Source: Nostoc carneum NIES-2107
Lineage (GTDB): Bacteria > Cyanobacteriota > Cyanobacteriia > Cyanobacteriales > Nostocaceae
Direction: 5' to 3'
Length of the DNA stretch: 64,000 bases
NCBI GenBank assembly: GCA_002368155.1
Contig: AP018180.1
Location: 5,970,908-6,034,907 of the forward strand
Part shown: positions 21,019-30,975 of the stretch, in pieces
Numbering within the stretch: position 1 is the first letter of the stretch
Layout: every line of letters starts with the position of its first letter
The notes under the pieces: generated by a model
Told to the model about the DNA's origin: nothing
What the model saw: only the letters and a program-made list of their open reading frames with translations
Database searches by the model: none
Made by a program: the position numbers and the translations under genes

Positions 21019-21936
21019 ATGCATTTACCAATTATTTATCATCCAGATTACGTTGCACCGCTACCGGAGGGACATCGGTTTCCGATGGCGAAGTTTCAGC
21101 AATTATACGAATTGTTAATAAATGATGGGGTGGCGCAAATTGAGCAATTTTATACGCCTGTGCTTCCGCCAACAGAATTGATTGAGTTGGTTCACACGGG
21201 TGACTATGTTCGCGCTTACTGTGAAGGAACATTAGACTCAAAAGCACAGCGGCGTATAGGCTTGCCGTGGAGTCCGGCATTGGCAAATCGTACCTGTGTA
21301 GCGGTCGGTGGTACAATATTGACTGCCCAATTAGCACTGAGTCAGGGTTTAGCTTGCAATACGGCTGGTGGGACTCATCATGCTTTTCCCAGTTATGGAT
21401 CTGGTTTTTGTATTTTCAATGATTTAGCGATCGCATCTCGCGTTTTACAAAAACTCGGACTTGCTCAAAAAATCTTAATAGTGGATTTAGATGTACATCA
21501 AGGTGATGGTACGGCTTTTATCTTCCAAGATGATGACAGCGTTTTCACATTTTCGATGCATTGTGAAGTGAATTTTCCTGGTACTAAGCAAACTAGCGAT
21601 TTGGATGTACCCTTACCAGAAGGGATGGAAGATGATGCCTACTTGCAAACTTTAGCAAAGTATTTACCTGATTTATTGTCAGAGGTAAAGCCAGATATCG
21701 TTTTTTATGACGCAGGTGTCGATCCACATATAGGCGATCGCCTGGGAAAATTAGCTTTAACCGATACTGGGATTTTCCGTCGCGAAATGCAGGTTTTGAG
21801 TACTTGTGTCAGTGCTGGTTATCCCGTCGCCTGTGTTATTGGTGGCGGTTACGCCGACGATTTGTCATCCCTGGTTTGGCGACATTCTTTAGTACATCGT
21901 GCTGCTAGTGAAGTCTACAGACAATATAAACTATAA
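21019..21936 (+). CDS. Histone deacetylase family hydrolase
   Basis: A 305-aa zinc hydrolase of the HDAC/acetoin-utilisation/acetylpolyamine amidohydrolase superfamily. Motifs: the tandem His pair in AGGTHHAFPSYGSGFCIFND, the metal ligands in VDLDVHQGDGTAFIF, the Asp ligand in FYDAGVDPHIGDRLGKL and CVIGGGYADD. Bacterial members deacetylate polyamines or proteins; the substrate here is unknown. The ATG is chosen because MHLPIIYHPDY matches the family start. Confidence 0.9.
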   Translation: MHLPIIYHPDYVAPLPEGHRFPMAKFQQLYELLINDGVAQIEQFYTPVLPPTELIELVHTGDYVRAYCEGTLDSKAQRRIGLPWSPALANRTCVAVGGTILTAQLALSQGLACNTAGGTHHAFPSYGSGFCIFNDLAIASRVLQKLGLAQKILIVDLDVHQGDGTAFIFQDDDSVFTFSMHCEVNFPGTKQTSDLDVPLPEGMEDDAYLQTLAKYLPDLLSEVKPDIVFYDAGVDPHIGDRLGKLALTDTGIFRREMQVLSTCVSAGYPVACVIGGGYADDLSSLVWRHSLVHRAASEVYRQYKL

Positions 21937-22009
21937 ACTTATAGTCATTACTAAATTCTCCGAGGAATTATCACACACCCCAATCTACAACATTAAAATC
22001 TCCATCTTG

Positions 22010-22045
22010 CTCTCTGCGCCTCCGCGTCTCTGCGTGCAATTTTTA
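22010..22045 (+). repeat. Dispersed cyanobacterial spacer repeat (CTCTGCGCCTCCGCGTCTCT)
   Basis: The motif CTCTGCGCCTCCGCGTCTCT followed by GCGTG is a commonly dispersed spacer sequence in cyanobacterial genomes. It lies upstream of the helicase gene. The rest of the 21937-22199 spacer is AT-rich and holds that gene's promoter region, which I cannot resolve. Confidence 0.5.
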
Positions 22046-22199: not shown

Positions 22200-25100
22200 A
22201 TGAACAAAACAAAAGTTAGAATTTACGAACTTTCAAAGGAAATAAATGTAGATAGCAAAAAGCTATTAGTAATATGCCAGCAACTCAATATTGTCGCCAA
22301 AAGTCCTAGCAGCACCATTTCAGAATTTGAAGCAGAACGTGTTCGCAAAGCTGCTCAACCAGCAGTTACTAAAGTTGCTACTACCCGCAAAACTAGTTCC
22401 TTAAAAATGAAAATGGCCTCAGAAGATTGGGGCTATATGTTCGTAAATTCAACGATTGATAGTTTAATCCGGCATTTAGCAGGCGCGGATGCAGTTGCAG
22501 AATATCCCGATTTTAGCGAACGTCGAGAATATGCCCATGAATTAATGTGGGAATGCGTTGGACAAAATCCTTGTCTTTTTTATTTGCGTCGTAAAGGTGC
22601 AGGAAGAGCAGCTAAAGAAGAAATTTGGGAATTAATTATCGCTACTGATTCTGAAAATAGTAAGTTACCTCTGAGGCTGCAAAAGTTAGGCAAAACTCTA
22701 GGATTTAAAGCTGCAGTACATCCTAATGGCTACGAAGGTATAAGAATTTTATCTGCTTATTTACTCCCAATTACACGGGGAAATAATGATGCTTATGCTG
22801 TACCATTGCGCTTGCGACTTCTGCCTAACCATGAGCATCATATCGGTATTCCCTCAACTATATTTACACAATTAAAAAATACGCCTATTTGTGGTGACTT
22901 TGTACCTACAGAAGAGCAACTTAAAGCATGGAAAGCATTTTTGCAGATAGAAGAAAAAATTGCTCAAGCGCGTCAGTTTTGTGTACCTTACCGCAATCAT
23001 AACTATAACTTTAAAAGACGTATCAGTTTTCAAATTGATATCAACTCAGCTACCCTTGATGGTTCACCAGAAAATCTTTTGGATGTAGAAAACTTCTGGG
23101 AACGGGTAAGGAAAGCAAAAAACGAAGATTTGAAATTATTTGAAACAGCACCCACAGGGAGAAATTGGCAACAAAGTCGGTTATTAGGTTCACTCGAAGA
23201 AATTGACATTAAAAATCGCATCATTAGTGTGAGGCTGGAACGCGATTTTGCTGATTACATCACCAGCGGACGTTATCAACTTCCTGATACTGGGTTTTTA
23301 TGTTTTGAAGCAGTTGGCGATATTAAACAAATTCAGCGCAAGAAAAAAGCTTTAGATGATTTAAATAATGGACGCACACAAAATCCTTATTTAGGTAATT
23401 TCTTATTTGATGCTGCTCAGGCTCGACCTATTCATAAAACTGTAGAATTACCAGTAGAAGATTTATTATTATCATCTGCTAATCCTGGTCAAAAAGCAGC
23501 AGTAGAAACAGTACTTTCCGCCGAAGATTTAGTTTTAATTCAGGGGCCACCGGGTACAGGGAAAACAACTGTAATTGCTGAGATTTGCTATCAAGTCGCC
23601 TTGCGCGGTGGGCGGACTTTGATTGCTTCCCAAGCGAATTTAGCAGTAGATAATGCCCTGAGTAGATTAGTTCATAACCCTGTAATTCGGGCGATACGTA
23701 AGGGACGTGCTGAGAAAGTTGGCGAAGAAGGACAAGCGTTTTTAGAAGACCAAGTTATTGGCACATGGTTAGATAATACTGCTAGTGACTGCGAAACTCG
23801 TCTCAGTAATCGCCGCCAAAATTTAGAAAATTATCGTCAATTATTGGCATTTTATCCAAGATTTAAAGCTTATATCCAATTAGAGGAAGAATTCCAAGTA
23901 AATCAGGAAGAATTAACGCATAAAGAAGCTAAATTACAAGTTAATCTGCAACAGCAAGAAGCACTTTATCATGATGCATTAGCTAAGAAGACTGAAATTG
24001 AAACTTTAATTTCTGGTTTAGAAAATCTTTTAGATTCTCCATCAATAGTTAATTGGGAAGCTCCAGAAATTACTAACTTTTTACCACATTTACGCCCATA
24101 TACTGAAGGGAATACTTTAGTTAAAGACTTTTTGGTAAATGTCGCTAAAGCTATAACATTGACTGATAAACTTGGCTTTCTTCGTCCTCAATGTGGTGCT
24201 TTTGGATTGGCTGTGTGGTTACGTGAAACTGTCGCCAAGGGAATTCCTGACTTTAAAACTGCATTAATTTATGCTCAAAGTGCAACTGTAGCAATGTTAG
24301 AAGTTGCAGCCGCAGTTCAGGTTTTTAAACAACATTCCAGCAATTTACAACAGTTACAAAAAGATAATCAGCAATTTTTTAGTAAACAGCACAGTCTACA
24401 GCAAACTATTCAAAATTGGGAAACTCGCAAGCAGGAACTTGAGACAGTTATCGTTGCTGTCAAGGAATGGAAGGCTACAGCTAATACGCGTCTATCGGAA
24501 ATTTTAAATAATTCTCGGCAGACTAATCAACCTTTAACCTTAGAACTAATGCAATTACCGCCAGGATTGGTAATGCTAGCTAATTCTTTAAAAATATCAT
24601 TAATGCCAAGCAATTATACAGTGAATCTACCAGACTGGGATTTATTGACAAAGGCGATCGCTTACGAAATTGAGGGAGAATATAGTGATAGAAAAGGTAG
24701 ACAGCATAGTTTTAGCTATTTTCTCCAGCAGAATTTTAGCAAAATTCCTGTAGTGTTGAAAACGAGCGATTGTACTCAATGGCAGGAAATTGCTCAACAG
24801 CTTAATAACTATCAATATTTAACGCAAAATCAGCGAAAAACTATAGTTGATGCTACTCAACTTTTATTGAATAGAATTCAACAAACCTATGGCGCATTAT
24901 GGGAAGCCAATAATAGTGAAACAACTCTCACTAAAATTACCCAAGAACTTATAGAAAGCATCCTTAACAATGCGCGTCAATGCGTTTTTAAAGTCAAAAC
25001 TGAAATAGAACAGCATTTACAAAATCTAGAACGACAGTTAAATGAACTGCACAATCATGAAACTGCGCCGCAGCAAATATTGAATATTCAAAATAACATA

Positions 25101-26708
25101 GAAGCAGCCAGGCAAGATGCTAATGTGAAACTGGCAAGAGCAATCAATACTTTGCAAGAACTCAACCAACAGCCAAATATTCCTCAGCAATTACGTACTT
25201 TAGTTGACCAATATCTCACCACCCAAGCTAAAATTTGGGAGCATCCACAGGAATTCTCTAAACACGTCCATGCTTGGATTAATCAGCTAAGTCAGCTAGA
25301 AAATTTAATTACATCTCTAGAACCGTTTGCGGTATTAGAAAATATCAAATTTTCTTTGATTGAACAGCTAACAATATTGCAAGAGGAAACAACGATTGTT
25401 CAACAACAGATTGAAACTTTAAAAGTCAAACTAGCTAAAATATCCGAACAGACACAACCAGAAGAATTATCAGCAACTTTATTATTAGAGCGTAACTGGT
25501 GGCAGATAGAATGGCAAGGGATATCTGATAAATTTAAAATTCAAACTTCTACTACTGATTTATATAATTTAGAATTTTTACGCAGCATTAAATCTCAATT
25601 TGATGCTTTTCAAGAGCAACTTACTCAAGATGAAGCTTATCTCAACCGATATGGTAATTTTATTCAAGATTGGATTGAAAAAGTACGCAATCCATCAGAA
25701 CGCGATCGCCACGATTTAAGACAGGTATATTTAGATAATGCTAACGTTGTCGGTATCACCTGCGTACAAGCAGCAAATCGTGATTTTTCCGAAGAATTTC
25801 AATGCTTTGATGTGGTGATTGTTGATGAAGTTAGTAAATGTACGCCACCAGAATTGCTGATTCCTGCTTTGAAGGGTAAAAAATTAGTCATGGTGGGCGA
25901 TCATAAACAATTACCACCAATGCTAGATACTAGTACTTTAGAAGAAGTTGTGCAAGAAATTGGCAGTAGTAGAGAAGAATTGCAATTTTTAGAAGAATCT
26001 CTCTTCAAAAGCCAATTTGAAGATGCGGATCAAAGCATCAAACAAATGTTAACTACCCAATATCGAATGCACCCCAATATTATGGGCGCAATCAATCAAT
26101 TTTATGAGGGTAAATTAGAATGTGGAATTTTACAGCCAGATATTAAACGCGCCCATGATTTAGCTGGGGAAATAGTTCAACCTCAACACCATTTACTTTG
26201 GGTTAAAATGCCCAAAGAAGATACATTTCAAGAACAGCGTGAAGGTACTTCTTTATTTAACCTTCAGGAAATAGATGTCATTGAAGCTTTATGTCAGCAA
26301 TTTGAAAATTCTTGGGCTGCAAAAGTTGCCTGTGGTGAACCCAAAAAAGAAATAGCTGTAATTACATTTTATGGCGCTCAACTGAGAAAAATTGATGAAC
26401 GTCTCCAATCAGAACTTTTCCCTTCACTGCAAATTCGTACTGGTACAGTTGATAGATTTCAGGGTATGGAACGCCCGGTTGTAATTGTCAGCATGGTTCG
26501 CAACAATAATAAAGGAGATGTGGGATTTGCGAAAAAACCAGAACGGGTAAATGTGGCTTTTTCTCGCGCCCAAGAATTGCTAGTAATTGTAGGCTGTCAC
26601 GATTTATTTACCAAGCAACCTGGTAAAGTTGGCAATATGTACTCAGAAGTTGCTAATGTTGTTAGTCATCATGGAGGTTTTGTTGATGTTTCTCACATCC
26701 TCAAATAA
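22200..26708 (+). CDS. SF1 DNA2/UPF1-type helicase with IF-2 N-terminal domain (Mokosh-like defence helicase)
   Basis: A 1502-aa protein. Residues 5-48 ([20 protein letters not shown]) match the IF2_N domain of translation initiation factor IF-2. Residues about 60-440 are a conserved but unnamed region. Walker A is [15 protein letters not shown] (about 447-461). A long Gln/Leu/Glu-rich coiled-coil region (about 530-1180) is inserted before motif II ([12 protein letters not shown], about 1203). Then come motif [15 protein letters not shown] (about 1230), QYRMHPNIM (about 1285), [15 protein letters not shown] (about 1418) and motif [18 protein letters not shown] (about 1449). This is the COG1112 layout. 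It overlaps the PLD gene by 23 bp, so the two are almost surely translated together. A helicase of this class paired with a separate PLD protein is the type I Mokosh arrangement; the usual kinase domain is absent. The defence role is inferred. Confidence 0.9.
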
Positions 26709-28584
26709 ACCCATAGATGATAGTCTGAAGAATTTAGTTGAAGAAATTACAGCCCAAAATCCGCATTTATCAGTTTTAGCTGCTCGTCAATTGCGCTATA
26801 GTTTGCAGCAAACAACTGTAGAATTAACCATCACAGAACCCCGTCCGTTAAATGTCTTAGAAGAGTTTATCATTCGCGCTGGAATAGAATTTGATCCGTC
26901 ACCAACAGCCAAGGAATTAGCCTCTATTTTGGGGCTAGATAGCATATTTGTGGAAAGTACAATCAAAACTTTGCAAAGGTTACAAACTCTTGCAGCTAAA
27001 TCGCCAATTACAGTGACAGAACAAGGACGTTTATTTTATGAGAAAGGTTCTGTACCACAACCACCCTATGCTGTACAGATTTATGCAATTACAGATGTTT
27101 TCAGCGACAATATTACCTTTCAGACTGAACCATTAAATGAAATAAATCTCAATTTACCCAATCTGGCAAATTTTTTAAATATCAATTTGCCAAATAAAGA
27201 TATATCTTCCGTAAGTTTAGAGGATATACAAAAGAGCCTCCAAGCTTCAGATGTGGCGCTTCATGTACCCGAAGCCGGGAAGATTGTCACAGCTTTTAGG
27301 GTATTACAAAACCCGCAAATTATTTGGCGCAAAATATCAATATTTGTAATTTATGATGCCAATGAAGATAAAATTACTATTCAACTGCGACGCGGAAAGG
27401 AAATTTTAGATTCTAGTTCAAAATGGCTGGATAAATTGCTAGATGAAGGGAAAGTATCTTTAGCTGAATTGTGCAAATCATCAAACACAGCCACCAATTT
27501 TGAGATAGAAGCGACTCTAAATCATAAAAATGACGAAATAGAATCCAGATTTAAAAATATTCGGCAGCAAGCTTTAGAAAGTAATCTCAAACCTAGCTCG
27601 AGACGCAGAAAATCTAGCGACTCAGGTAATGTTATACAATTAAGCGATCGCCAAATTTATCAAATTTGTTTAGAAATTCTTAATGCCGCAAAATTTCAGA
27701 TAATTATATATTCACCTTGGATAAATCATGTAATTGCCAATAACGAAATTTTAGCTGTGTTAGAACAAGCAGCAAAACGCGGAGTTTCCATTTTAATTGG
27801 CTATGGAATATTGCTGCAAATAGAACAACCAATATCAACCGAAATACGAGCTATCAAAACATCCGAAGGTTTACCGTATATACAGTTAGCTGAGTTAGCT
27901 GATTCACATATTAAAGAAATAATAGTTGATAAAGAAATTTATCTTTGTAGTTCTTACCAATGGCTTGATTATAACGGCGAAGAAATACCATTAAGTGAGT
28001 TCGTTTATCAAGTGACAATTCTCCAGGAAGTTAATGATGCTTATGAATTTATCACCCAGCGCTTCCATAACCATGCTCAACAATTATGGACAAAGGCTTT
28101 AGAAAATCGTGACACTCAATTAGCTATAAATTCTCTGTCTTTATGGGGTGCTATGGGAATGGAAAATATAGCACTGAAAGAAATAGAGAAAAATAATTGG
28201 CTAGAATTACTTCCTTTATGGCTAAATATTCTCTTGCCAAAGTTAAATTCCCACAACTTACCTGATGATTTAGTAAGTGTGAACTTAGCACTTTCATTGC
28301 TGAGTCAGGTAGCACCAGAAGCACCCTTCATTGATTCATTACAACAGGGATTGCGTCAATTTATGAATGCGATCGCCACACACAACCGTGACACTGCTGT
28401 CAATTTGCTCAATAATGAAGTATGGTCAGAGTTGCTTCGTCTTCAGATAGCTCAAGAAAATGATTCAGTCGATGATTTTATCTCGCAACAGACTTTACCT
28501 CAACAACCTTCTAAAAAGGAACCAGCAACAAAAATAAAAAAAGCAGCAACAGAAAAGAAGACGAGGAAAAAAGTCAAGGAGTAA
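26686..28584 (+). CDS. Single-HKD phospholipase-D-superfamily protein, partner of the helicase
   Basis: A 632-aa protein. The PLD motif is complete: H408, K410 and D415 in [10 protein letters not shown]. It is preceded by the strand [12 protein letters not shown] (about 337-348), a common PLD-family feature. Only one HKD is present, so a homodimer would be needed for a full active site. The N-terminal half has a winged-helix-like part ([21 protein letters not shown]). The C-terminus is a Lys-rich tail ([20 protein letters not shown]) suited to nucleic-acid binding. The start ATG at 26686 has GGAGG at 26673-26677 and lies inside the helicase gene's last codons; the open frame extends to a TTG at 26629. 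Likely a nuclease acting with the helicase (inference). Confidence 0.85.
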
Positions 28585-29043: not shown

Positions 29044-30183
29044 GTGAGGTTATTAAAAGGCTTTGAAATTGAAATGTATACTGGCACACCTCAGGGTGAA
29101 ATCGTCGGTCTCTCTGACAAGATTGTTGAGGCTATGCCAGGATTTATGCGAGAACCAGATAGCCGCAACGTTGAATATGTCACAAAACCTTTACAAAGTT
29201 ATGAGCAACTATTGTGTGCCTTGCTGCGTCCTCGCCACGAACTGAGAAAATACCTCCAGCAGCTAGGCGACTATACTTTAATTCCAGGTAGTACGCTGTC
29301 TTTGGGTAGGAGCGATCGCTTCTTCCGTTCCGACCCTAAAAATCCCTATCACGATTATATAGAAAACACCTACGGCACAAAAGTAGTGACCGCTAGCGTA
29401 CATATTAATGTAGGGATTAGCGATCCAGAAACATTAATGCGGGCTTGTCGCGTCATTCGCACCGAAGCACCTTTGTTCCTCGCCCTCAGCGCCTCATCCC
29501 CCTTCATAGATGGCAAAGCTACTGGCTATCACTCGACTCGTTGGGGACTCTTCCCCCAAACTCCTAGCCATGTACCTTTATTTGCTAGCCATGCCGATCA
29601 TATTCAATGGGTAGAACAACAGCTAGCTGCTGGAACCATGCAAAATGTCCGTCATTTGTGGACATCAGTGCGCCCTAATGGTGATCGCCGTCCTTACGAT
29701 TTAAATCGCCTAGAACTGCGAATTTGCGATTTAGTCTCAGATCCCATCGCTTTACTCGCAATTACCGCATTGCTGGAAGCTCGTCTGTTGCAGATAATAG
29801 AAAACACCCACATCGATCCGTTAACCCAAAGCACCTTTACCCCCGAAGAACTAATTGCTGTCACTGCTAGCAACGAAGCCGCGGCTGCAGCAAATAGTTT
29901 GGATGCTCAATTGACACATTGGCAAGATGGCAAAACTATTATTGCCAGAGATTGGATCGCTCAAATGTATGAAGAACTTTGGGCGATCGCTAAAGAACGA
30001 GGATTTAATTGCTTCCTTTCTCCTTTACAGAAAATTTTGCGCGAAGGTAATGAAGCCCAACAGTGGCTACAATTACACGCAGTTGGGGTTGATGCTCAAC
30101 GTGTCATTACCCAAGCAATTGTTACTGCTAAAGAACGGGAAGTTGAATTAGAAGATAAATTGTGTTCCCCCTCAATGGCGTAA
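29044..30183 (+). CDS. gshA: Glutamate-cysteine ligase, cyanobacterial type
   Basis: A 379-aa GCS2-superfamily ligase, forming gamma-glutamylcysteine from Glu and Cys with ATP as the first step of glutathione synthesis. It begins MRLLKGFEIEMYTGTPQGEIV, with the acidic metal/ATP residues in FEIE. Later motifs are YHDYIENTYGTKVVTASVHINVG and RPYDLNRLELRICDLVSDP. The start codon is GTG with AGGAG about 10 bases upstream; the family N-terminus begins exactly here. gshB is not adjacent. Confidence 0.9.
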   Translation: MRLLKGFEIEMYTGTPQGEIVGLSDKIVEAMPGFMREPDSRNVEYVTKPLQSYEQLLCALLRPRHELRKYLQQLGDYTLIPGSTLSLGRSDRFFRSDPKNPYHDYIENTYGTKVVTASVHINVGISDPETLMRACRVIRTEAPLFLALSASSPFIDGKATGYHSTRWGLFPQTPSHVPLFASHADHIQWVEQQLAAGTMQNVRHLWTSVRPNGDRRPYDLNRLELRICDLVSDPIALLAITALLEARLLQIIENTHIDPLTQSTFTPEELIAVTASNEAAAAANSLDAQLTHWQDGKTIIARDWIAQMYEELWAIAKERGFNCFLSPLQKILREGNEAQQWLQLHAVGVDAQRVITQAIVTAKEREVELEDKLCSPSMA

Positions 30184-30513
30184 CACCCCATCCCCTCCCC
30201 AGTTACAAATGGTAGATTTTTCAGAATACTTGGGAGACCCAGGAACACGAACAACTAGCGCCTCATGGAAAAAATCTCAGTAATTTGATTTTCGCGTGAT
30301 GGCACTAGTTGCTCATAAAAATTTAATAATTGATTGTTTTATCTTATGAATACTCTTAGATTTCCTTTTAAGAGTTTATTTTTTTATGTTTTAAAAAACT
30401 AATCAATAGAATTAGCTTCACAATTATTAAGAAAACCTATAGATAATCAACATAGATTGGTAAAATGTGTCGAATTGATACGTTGTTTCTACTACATTTT
30501 TACCACTGAGAAA
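30184..30513. other. 330-bp spacer, no gene seen
   Basis: An AT-rich spacer between gshA and trmL. It begins with a C-rich stretch (CACCCCATCCCCTCCCC) and continues as A/T tracts. The trmL frame is open back to 30457, but the family start is at 30514. Confidence 0.5.
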
Positions 30514-30975
30514 ATGCCCCAGGTAGTTTTAGTTAATCCCCAAATTCCGCCGAATACAGGCAATATTGCCCGGACTTGTGCTGCTACGGGTACAGAATTA
30601 CATTTGGTAGGGCCTTTGGGTTTTGAAATTAGCGATCGCTACCTCAAAAGAGCAGGTTTAGACTACTGGCCCTATGTCAAACTTAACTATCATGAAACGC
30701 TAGAAGACTTTAAAACCGTACATCAGCAACGTGGCGGTAGATGTTTGGGCTTCTCTGTGCGTGGCAGTGCCAATTATGCTCAATTTCAGTTTCAAGATAA
30801 TGACTGGCTGCTATTTGGTAGCGAAACCACAGGATTACCACCCACAGCTTTGTCAGCCTGTGATACCACTCTCTATATTCCTATGGCACAACCCAATGTT
30901 CGCAGCTTAAATCTTTCTGTAAGTGTTGCTGTCAGCTTATTTGAAGCCCGCCGCCAATTGGGATATTTACAATAG
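30514..30975 (+). CDS. trmL: tRNA (cytidine(34)-2'-O)-methyltransferase
   Basis: A 153-aa SPOUT methyltransferase of TrmL type that methylates the wobble ribose of tRNA-Leu. Motifs: VLVNPQIPPNTGNIARTCAATG at the N-terminus, LFGSETTGLP and the C-terminal IPMAQPNVRSLNLSVSVAVSL, which forms the trefoil-knot SAM site. The ATG at 30514 (MPQVVLVNP) gives the normal family length; the frame extends to 30457 without a convincing start. Confidence 0.93.
   Translation: MPQVVLVNPQIPPNTGNIARTCAATGTELHLVGPLGFEISDRYLKRAGLDYWPYVKLNYHETLEDFKTVHQQRGGRCLGFSVRGSANYAQFQFQDNDWLLFGSETTGLPPTALSACDTTLYIPMAQPNVRSLNLSVSVAVSLFEARRQLGYLQ

Follow-up and report, generated by a model that had tools for sequence, protein, structure and literature searches.

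Two described groups of systems come closest to the gene pair studied here (the papers are cited from excerpts). Mokosh type I is defined by a separate COG1112-type superfamily 1 (SF1) helicase gene (PMC11672841), and a NERD domain is listed for it in PMC10952713. Further marks of this type are a PLD nuclease gene of its own next to the helicase (MkoB) and a Ser/Thr kinase domain. In CnuH/CnuE operons, found in CoCoNuT Type II/III and relatives, a UPF1-like helicase is followed by an elongated winged helix-turn-helix (wHTH) protein fused to variable effectors; the CnuH-type helicase family is typical of such operons, in CoCoNuTs and relatives alike, and CnuH carries a large helical insertion after Walker A (PMC11090510). 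We analysed a window of 64,000 nucleotides from Nostoc carneum NIES-2107 (contig AP018180.1, positions 5,970,908 to 6,034,907 of the forward strand), where an SF1 helicase gene (gene A) overlaps a second gene (gene B) coding for a protein with a phospholipase D (PLD)-like domain. A sequence-only reading of this DNA had described the pair as a Mokosh-like phage defence unit.

We propose, with reasonable confidence, that the pair belongs to a helicase/wHTH defence chassis with swappable effectors, whose nuclease in the window is probably weak or dead and whose retained function would reside in the core of helicase and adaptor. Catalytic or whole-domain loss of the PLD recurs on the tree of relatives, while the helicase and the N-terminal domain of gene B stay constrained. 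The parts of the pair are the following:

22200..26708, + strand: gene A, UPF1-like SF1 helicase of 1502 amino acids, MkoA/CnuH-like (Pfam AAA_11/AAA_12, PADLOC, phmmer, Foldseek)
22212..22349, + strand: IF2_N domain, helicase residues 5-50 (PF04760, E 1.1e-8, 35.1 bits against a cutoff of 25.3)
23544..23567, + strand: Walker A GPPGTGKT, residues 449-456 (sequence, motif position)
25989..26600, + strand: RecA2/AAA_12 domain, residues 1264-1467 (Pfam E 2.1e-49)
26674..26678, + strand: GGAGG, Shine-Dalgarno-like, for gene B, inside the helicase gene and 7 nt before the ATG (sequence)
26686..28584, + strand: gene B, 632 amino acids, N-terminal domain (winged-helix-like), linker, PLD domain and helical C-terminus, MkoB/CnuE-like (PADLOC MkoB, AlphaFold)
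26686..27540, + strand: N-terminal domain of gene B, residues 1-285, the portion retained in PLD-less relatives (PADLOC, relatives)
27637..28050, + strand: PLD-like domain, residues 318-455 (PLDc_2, Foldseek)
27907..27930, + strand: HxKxxxxD, with H408, K410 and D415 (sequence, alignment)
27949..27960, + strand: position of the canonical GSxN, reading SSYQ in the window, residues 422-425 (alignment)

Both open reading frames (ORFs) are present as had been described, the 1502-residue helicase overlapping the second gene by 23 bp (26686-26708). Gene B starts at the ATG at 26686, the mechanically called ORF beginning earlier, at a TTG (26629), and of 60 overlapping pairs, 56 carry a GGAGG in the final 60 nt of their helicase ORF.

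Judged by profile matches and tree position, the window pair is related to Mokosh type I and stands outside its kinase-type clade. The relationship follows from the PADLOC models matching both proteins, MkoA with 392 and 344 bits against gene A and MkoB with 94 bits against gene B (residues 43-436 against positions 15-427 of the 610-position profile). The gene order is also alike, a separate SF1 helicase gene being followed by a gene with the N-terminal domain and a PLD. In the window genome, MkoB matched across both domains once, in the window's own gene B, and partially three times. Unlike Mokosh type I, the window helicase has no detected Ser/Thr kinase and is 1502 residues long versus 1184 and 1138 in two kinase-bearing cyanobacterial MkoA, while gene B has an altered GSxN. 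Two cyanobacterial pairs whose helicase bears a Pfam Ser/Thr kinase score far higher, with 711/226 bits (L171, which adjoins genes annotated as CBASS-like) and 878/306 bits (L180), than the window's 392/94. In a 32-row maximum-likelihood tree, the window helicase fell into a starred 19-row cyanobacterial clade (100/99), apart from a 7-row kinase-type clade (99/95) that was labelled by hand, with Pkinase confirmed by Pfam in two of its seven members (L171, L180) and with long-branch warnings. A NERD domain was not found among the best 25 of 32 Pfam families of gene A, nor among the Pfam families shown for the kinase-bearing L171 and L180, so that it seems to be no requirement for type I. The MkoC model of Mokosh type II matches the window helicase as well (112 bits), but there helicase and PLD form one protein and here two genes. 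The Mokosh-like unit of that reading is partly upheld, by the MkoA and MkoB matches, by the undetected kinase and the IF2_N and by some relatives in or near defence genes, but not with respect to the state of the nuclease.

The likeness to CnuH/CnuE concerns the architecture. The best Protein Data Bank (PDB) matches of gene A by phmmer were SMUBP-2/IGHMBP2, UPF1, DNA2 and NAM7, and a model of helicase residues 1-508 (pLDDT, the predicted local distance difference test, 78) gave UPF1 and IGHMBP2 as best Foldseek matches. As in CnuH, a long insertion follows Walker A, some 600 residues separating it from the remaining RecA1 (best AAA_11 stretch, 1065-1242). The product of the downstream gene appears winged-helix-like in its N-terminal domain, and its C-terminus varies among relatives (PLD, DarT, an unassigned type or none), unlike the HEPN, Vsr or double PLD of CnuE. 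Further differences are the IF2_N at the N-terminus of the window helicase and, with respect to CoCoNuTs, the lack of an McrB/McrC-type gene (CnuB/CnuC) among the checked neighbours of the window pair. The term "Mokosh" does not occur in PMC11090510.

As the sequence-only reading had noticed, gene A has an IF-2 N-terminal domain and lacks the usual kinase: Pfam finds AAA_11, AAA_12 and IF2_N, and no kinase among the best 25 of 32 families, the remainder having E >0.07. That IF2_N defines the system was not supported, and the domain was rejected as its hallmark. By eye, the window row and nine of the 31 others in the helicase alignment have an IF2_N-like N-terminus, all nine from Nostocaceae or family f1, and the remaining rows either have an N-terminus of about 220 residues that looks beta-helical or start straight at the helicase part. 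IF2_N was absent from five helicase homologues scanned with Pfam; by the same inspection by eye, the N-terminus takes at least three states, of which IF2_N is one. The beta-helix-like module of about 220 residues takes its place in L050, L060 and L066, and Pfam gave zero matches for those of L050 and L060. A plasmid helicase (L170:9953-14389, AP018308.1) is annotated as IF-2 domain-containing, yet its alignment row has no IF2_N-like segment by eye.

In gene B, the complete HxKxxxxD that had been pointed out (H408, K410, D415) is indeed present and is invariant across 26 alignment rows, which were picked for bearing the PLD, a wider sample showing losses of H and K. The Pfam PLDc_2 match reaches 20.2 bits, under the cutoff of 27 bits. 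In the AlphaFold model (pLDDT 80, predicted template modelling score 0.54), the helices and strands at the N-terminus would fit a winged helix; a PLD-like domain and a C-terminus made of helices follow. Residues 1-271 alone match MkoB (E 8.5e-9) and, weakly, WH_III-A (E 0.002). The first Foldseek match of the whole model is TrmBL2, and the first 50 include TrmBL2/TrmB, the single-HKD nucleases NucT and Nuc, PLD enzymes, BJ-TSA-9/FAM83 and, further down, Zucchini. BJ-TSA-9 is a FAM83 protein, and the FAM83 and TrmB domains are not known to be catalytic. A PDB profile search with the 26-row alignment gave no matches, and phmmer of gene B against the PDB two, at E 0.5. The assignment of gene B as DrmC of the DISARM system was rejected (PADLOC E 7.7e-5; NCBIfam E 0.055, with 13 of 133 bits).

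The fate of the PLD was followed across 100 distinct helicases (identical ones entered once) in a quick tree supported by SH-aLRT (approximate likelihood-ratio test) only; 25 loci lacking a helicase ORF >1100 residues were set aside from the trees. In 51 of them the HKD motif of the partner is canonical (HxKxxxxD-x6-GSxN) and in 23 degenerate; 14 partners consist of the N-terminal domain only, 7 have no HKD match (one of these, L165, cut by a contig end) and 3 end in DarT or another C-terminus, and for 2 helicases no partner turned up. GSxN, reading SSYQ in the window, is kept in 51/100, and its alterations differ between several lineages. In the clade of 10 rows to which the window belongs, eight partners are degenerate, two lack HKD and none is canonical; in two of its members, L036 and L167, H is changed to Y together with K to Q. 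Other catalytic losses are H to Y (L122), K to Q (L072) and K to R (L131). In L043, residues ~246-463 of gene B, linker and PLD, are missing and both flanking parts are retained. The tree requires at least four changes for the N-domain-only state, at least six for degenerate HKD and at least six for no HKD (the last including L165), and when PLD, no PLD, DarT and other are scored with the rows without HKD left out, six changes. By tblastn, none of the 14 N-domain-only loci contains a remnant of PLD or C-terminus. No conserved gene adjoining these partners was noticed by eye, no dedicated search for a separate effector gene having been made.

Constraint was compared by the ratio of non-synonymous to synonymous substitutions (dN/dS; median pairwise NG86, few sequences per group), given here in the order helicase, N-terminal domain, PLD and C-terminus. 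The window group (5 sequences) shows 0.12, 0.22, 0.31 and 0.43, its PLD spanning 0.23-0.53; its degenerate sister (3) 0.15, 0.16, 0.30 and 0.25; one pair without HKD 0.10, 0.18, 0.32 and 0.39; the Laspinema-type degenerate group (6) 0.105, 0.146, 0.229 and 0.262; and the Nodularia-type one (4) 0.23, 0.24, 0.46 and 0.37. Among canonical groups, the values are 0.24, 0.19, 0.07 and 0.21 in f33 (4), 0.29, 0.16, 0.10 and 0.30 in the Microcoleaceae type (7) and 0.145, 0.19, 0.23 and 0.28 in Nostoc (11). Of the three canonical groups, two therefore have the PLD as their slowest part, and in the degenerate groups it evolves faster than helicase and N-terminal domain. In N-domain-only groups, the helicase shows 0.15-0.17 and the N-terminal domain 0.18-0.25.

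In some relatives the PLD is replaced. On plasmid pC052_C of Nostoc sp. C052 (L169:9016-15764, NZ_CP040275.1), a helicase, an N-domain-DarT fusion and an ADP-ribosylglycohydrolase sit between pglX and pglZ of an annotated bacteriophage exclusion (BREX) operon (DarT PF14487, E 9.2e-16; ADP_ribosyl_GH PF03747, E 3.9e-42). A second such triad is found in L174 (PF14487 E 2e-18; PF03747 E 1.1e-45), whose DarT has E. coli C7 DarT1 as its best PDB match (E 1.8e-19). These two loci resemble DarTG-type toxin-antitoxin systems in that the partner ends in DarT and is followed by the hydrolase, and they differ in that DarT shares a protein with the adaptor domain and is coupled to a helicase; the window has no DarT. 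In L175:5968-7386, the N-terminal domain is fused to a different C-terminus that has no Pfam or PADLOC match and is possibly a further effector type, and the pair adjoins ORFs that by eye read like HsdM/HsdS of type I restriction-modification (RM). The helicases of L169, L174 and L175 form one starred branch. Among 106 neighbouring proteins from 20 non-syntenic loci (of 149 listed; 20 of the 106 scanned singly; 40 proteins of L046, L062, L070, L088 and L089 and three gene B ORFs left out), DrmD was identified close to the pair in L059 and L050, with a type I restriction endonuclease also present in L050. Some relatives, then, lie inside BREX or near DrmD or type I restriction genes. Outside cyanobacteria, on a Hymenobacter plasmid (L196, NZ_CP043645.1), the gene of a less closely related helicase precedes one for a 1691-residue protein annotated as DarT family, so the helicase-DarT pairing may extend beyond this phylum.

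Taken as a chassis, the UPF1-like helicase would be the sensor and motor, recognising or stripping foreign or aberrant nucleic acid. The winged-helix-like N-terminal domain of gene B would dock on it as an adaptor, after the CoCoNuT model, and the exchangeable C-terminus would be the effector, directed at nucleic acid exposed by the helicase. Among relatives, this effector would be either a PLD with intact HKD, presumably a nuclease as a dimer, or DarT. DarT acts on single-stranded DNA (ssDNA) according to its Pfam name; the nuclease NucT acts on ssDNA as well. Since PLD and DarT interchange on the same helicase and adaptor, they plausibly share a substrate, and ssDNA is the simplest choice because DarT and NucT both act on it. 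In HKD enzymes, the Asn of GSxN contributes to phosphate binding. Because H, K and D are kept in the window but GSxN, with this Asn, is lost, the window PLD is probably a weak nuclease or a pseudonuclease. The working nuclease of the sequence-only reading is not supported, given the changed GSxN, a PLD evolving faster than the helicase and the loss of H and K within the same 10-row clade. We infer docking, substrate, anti-phage role and the loss of nuclease activity from these patterns. In Nostocaceae, the module would have turned into a largely vertically inherited locus, and in the window lineage the PLD would have eroded, leaving helicase and adaptor to carry the retained function. That Nostocaceae domesticated an immune chassis, with the effector repeatedly disarmed or discarded and helicase plus adaptor selected for an effector-independent role, for example using translocation alone to clear nucleic acid that is foreign or stalled, is a more tentative proposal, to which we give somewhat less than even weight.

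Among 58 relatives, 26 carry a gene B match; across the order, 74 of 291 genomes do so at E<=1e-10, and 68 of the 291 have a helicase match at E<=1e-60. Compared by hand, 66 of the 68 helicase-bearing genomes also have gene B; of the eight with gene B only, five (L179-L183) pair it with a kinase-type helicase that is less closely related, the kinase itself being checked in L180 alone. The N-domain profile matched 40 of 386 genomes of the phylum (E<=1e-8), all from the window's own genome, its family or its order. In G269 the two genes are 1.3 Mb apart, both without internal stops. Ten of 72,556 plasmid records matched gene B, seven of them in the PLD part only. The pair is present in 8/8 genomes of the genus, and 12 of 34 genomes of the family (counted by hand) have no gene B match.

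The closest neighbours of the window pair are genes for a histone deacetylase (HDAC)-family protein, GCS2, SpoU and MscS, and in many Nostocaceae the pair sits between the HDAC-family gene and GCS2-TrmL-M23:

21019..21936, + strand: upstream neighbour, HDAC-family gene (PF00850 E 1.4e-58; synteny)
29044..30183, + strand: downstream neighbour GCS2 (PF04107 E 2e-57; synteny)
30457..30975, + strand: downstream neighbour, SpoU/TrmL-type methylase (PF00588 E 3.7e-35; synteny)

Helicase and GCS2 identities are correlated (Spearman 0.68; none of 999 Mantel permutations as high) over the 46 loci with GCS2 on the fetched stretch. Since the two agree on the nearest neighbour in only 24 of these, inheritance of the locus appears largely, not strictly, vertical. 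The pair lies elsewhere in the Nostocaceae L041, L042, L044, L083 and L086, is broken into fragments in L040 and L047, and in L071 (f18) the HDAC gene adjoins a helicase split into two ORFs. Nine genomes without gene B were inspected at GCS2 (L185-L193), none having a helicase or gene B match at E<=1e-3. The HDAC gene directly adjoins GCS2 in L186 and L190 with no pair between, as does a truncated HDAC gene in L187; L193 has a weak HDAC fragment, L189 only a distant HDAC paralogue, and no HDAC was found at GCS2 in L185, L188 and L191. In L192 (L192:4293-6326), which has no pair, GCS2 is preceded by an intact HDAC gene and by an additional fragment from the 3' end of that gene (residues 241-295). 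The sequence-only reading had named universal synteny with housekeeping genes, never near defence islands, as one finding that would speak against it; synteny does prevail in many Nostocaceae, but relatives lie in BREX and near DrmD and type I restriction genes.

How far other explanations account for these data can now be weighed. The constancy of the site would suit a domesticated housekeeping unit of Nostocaceae, an RNA/DNA helicase with its adaptor working in ribonucleoprotein remodelling or replication/transcription conflicts, the defence role having been lost. Co-variation with GCS2, the pair in every genome of the genus, and a helicase at dN/dS 0.12 beside a dispensable PLD agree with it. 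Such a unit is nevertheless quite improbable, given the family genomes that lack gene B, the empty sites of L186 and L190, the decayed pairs of L040 and L047, and relatives within BREX or near DISARM and RM genes. Slightly better placed, and still unlikely, is the reading that the pair works against phages as a Mokosh type I-like system, its PLD nuclease being live and tolerating SSYQ instead of GSxN. It would explain why H408, K410 and D415 are retained, why the window-group PLD is under purifying selection and why the MkoB model covers both N-terminal domain and PLD, but not the missing kinase and separate clade, the varied changes of GSxN, the joint loss of H and K in L036 and L167 or the disappearance of the entire PLD in other clades.

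The Foldseek result points to another possibility, which we regard as very unlikely: the PLD-derived domain would now be a ligand- or nucleic-acid-binding sensor, as in TrmB-type regulators and FAM83, and gene B a DNA-binding regulator or a regulatory subunit of the helicase. TrmBL2 as first match, FAM83-type structures among the first 50, a winged-helix-like N-terminal domain and a fold kept despite its eroded catalytic motif speak for it. Yet NucT and Nuc match too, and such a sensor would itself be dispensable, because PLD-less gene B persists in several clades.

Several observations weigh against the chassis with swappable effectors that we prefer. The window locus is not a defence island: PADLOC matches of the other 44 window proteins are chiefly of kinase type (PD-T4-6, mad6), plus two to MkoA, and no further defence system appeared among the best 25 of 31 families, so the defence setting that had been read into the window was not recovered. 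The PADLOC models are in themselves unspecific: these two MkoA matches probably arise through the kinase part of that model, and MkoB matched 9 of 14 control genomes at E<=1e-3. Among the 20 non-syntenic loci, clear defence genes were resolved at only 2, with the best 25 of 80 families covered and 20 of 106 proteins singly scanned. The winged helix of gene B is suggested by the secondary structure of the model and weak profile matches. The agreement of nearest neighbours in just 24/46 loci tells against strictly vertical inheritance. In canonical Nostoc the PLD (0.23) exceeds the helicase (0.145), so a raised PLD rate and a low helicase rate are not peculiar to degenerate lineages; because this third canonical group behaves like the degenerate ones, the two classes do not split cleanly. 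The window PLD itself, at 0.31, is well below 1, and the domain is therefore still selected. Finally, no phage experiment on the window clade was found in the open-licence literature searched.

Mokosh type I and CnuH/CnuE are already known; new are the largely inherited Nostocaceae site, the recurrent loss of PLD and its swap for DarT plus hydrolase. Repeated effector loss and a DarT swap inside BREX were not found in the open-licence literature searched, nor was the IF2_N-bearing kinase-less clade or its Nostocaceae locus, no search having named IF2_N or the locus; the terms DarT, UPF1 and Mokosh do not occur in PMC12839542. What Mokosh senses and cuts appears unsettled in the excerpts consulted: a review gives its mechanism as unknown (PMC12926258), and PMC11291487 has it degrading viral transcripts, an RNA-directed reading from which the ssDNA proposed for the window family differs. 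Lineages that repeatedly lost the nuclease and kept the helicase are natural separation-of-function variants for asking whether the helicase alone can defend.

Some minor observations concern the arrangement of the pair. In family f21, L060 and L063 each have two tandem pairs, one beside GCS2-TrmL, and the tandem pairs come from different branches of the helicase tree. At other loci, as much as 2.6 kb separates helicase and gene B, and in several this gap holds unrelated ORFs; in L105, L111, L127 and others, these are, by eye, a 292-residue ORF resembling a membrane transporter or ORFs resembling Uma2, and both genes persist. Upstream of the window helicase, at 22005-22045, a stretch of the form ctctgcgcctccgcgtctctgcg resembles a dispersed repeat.

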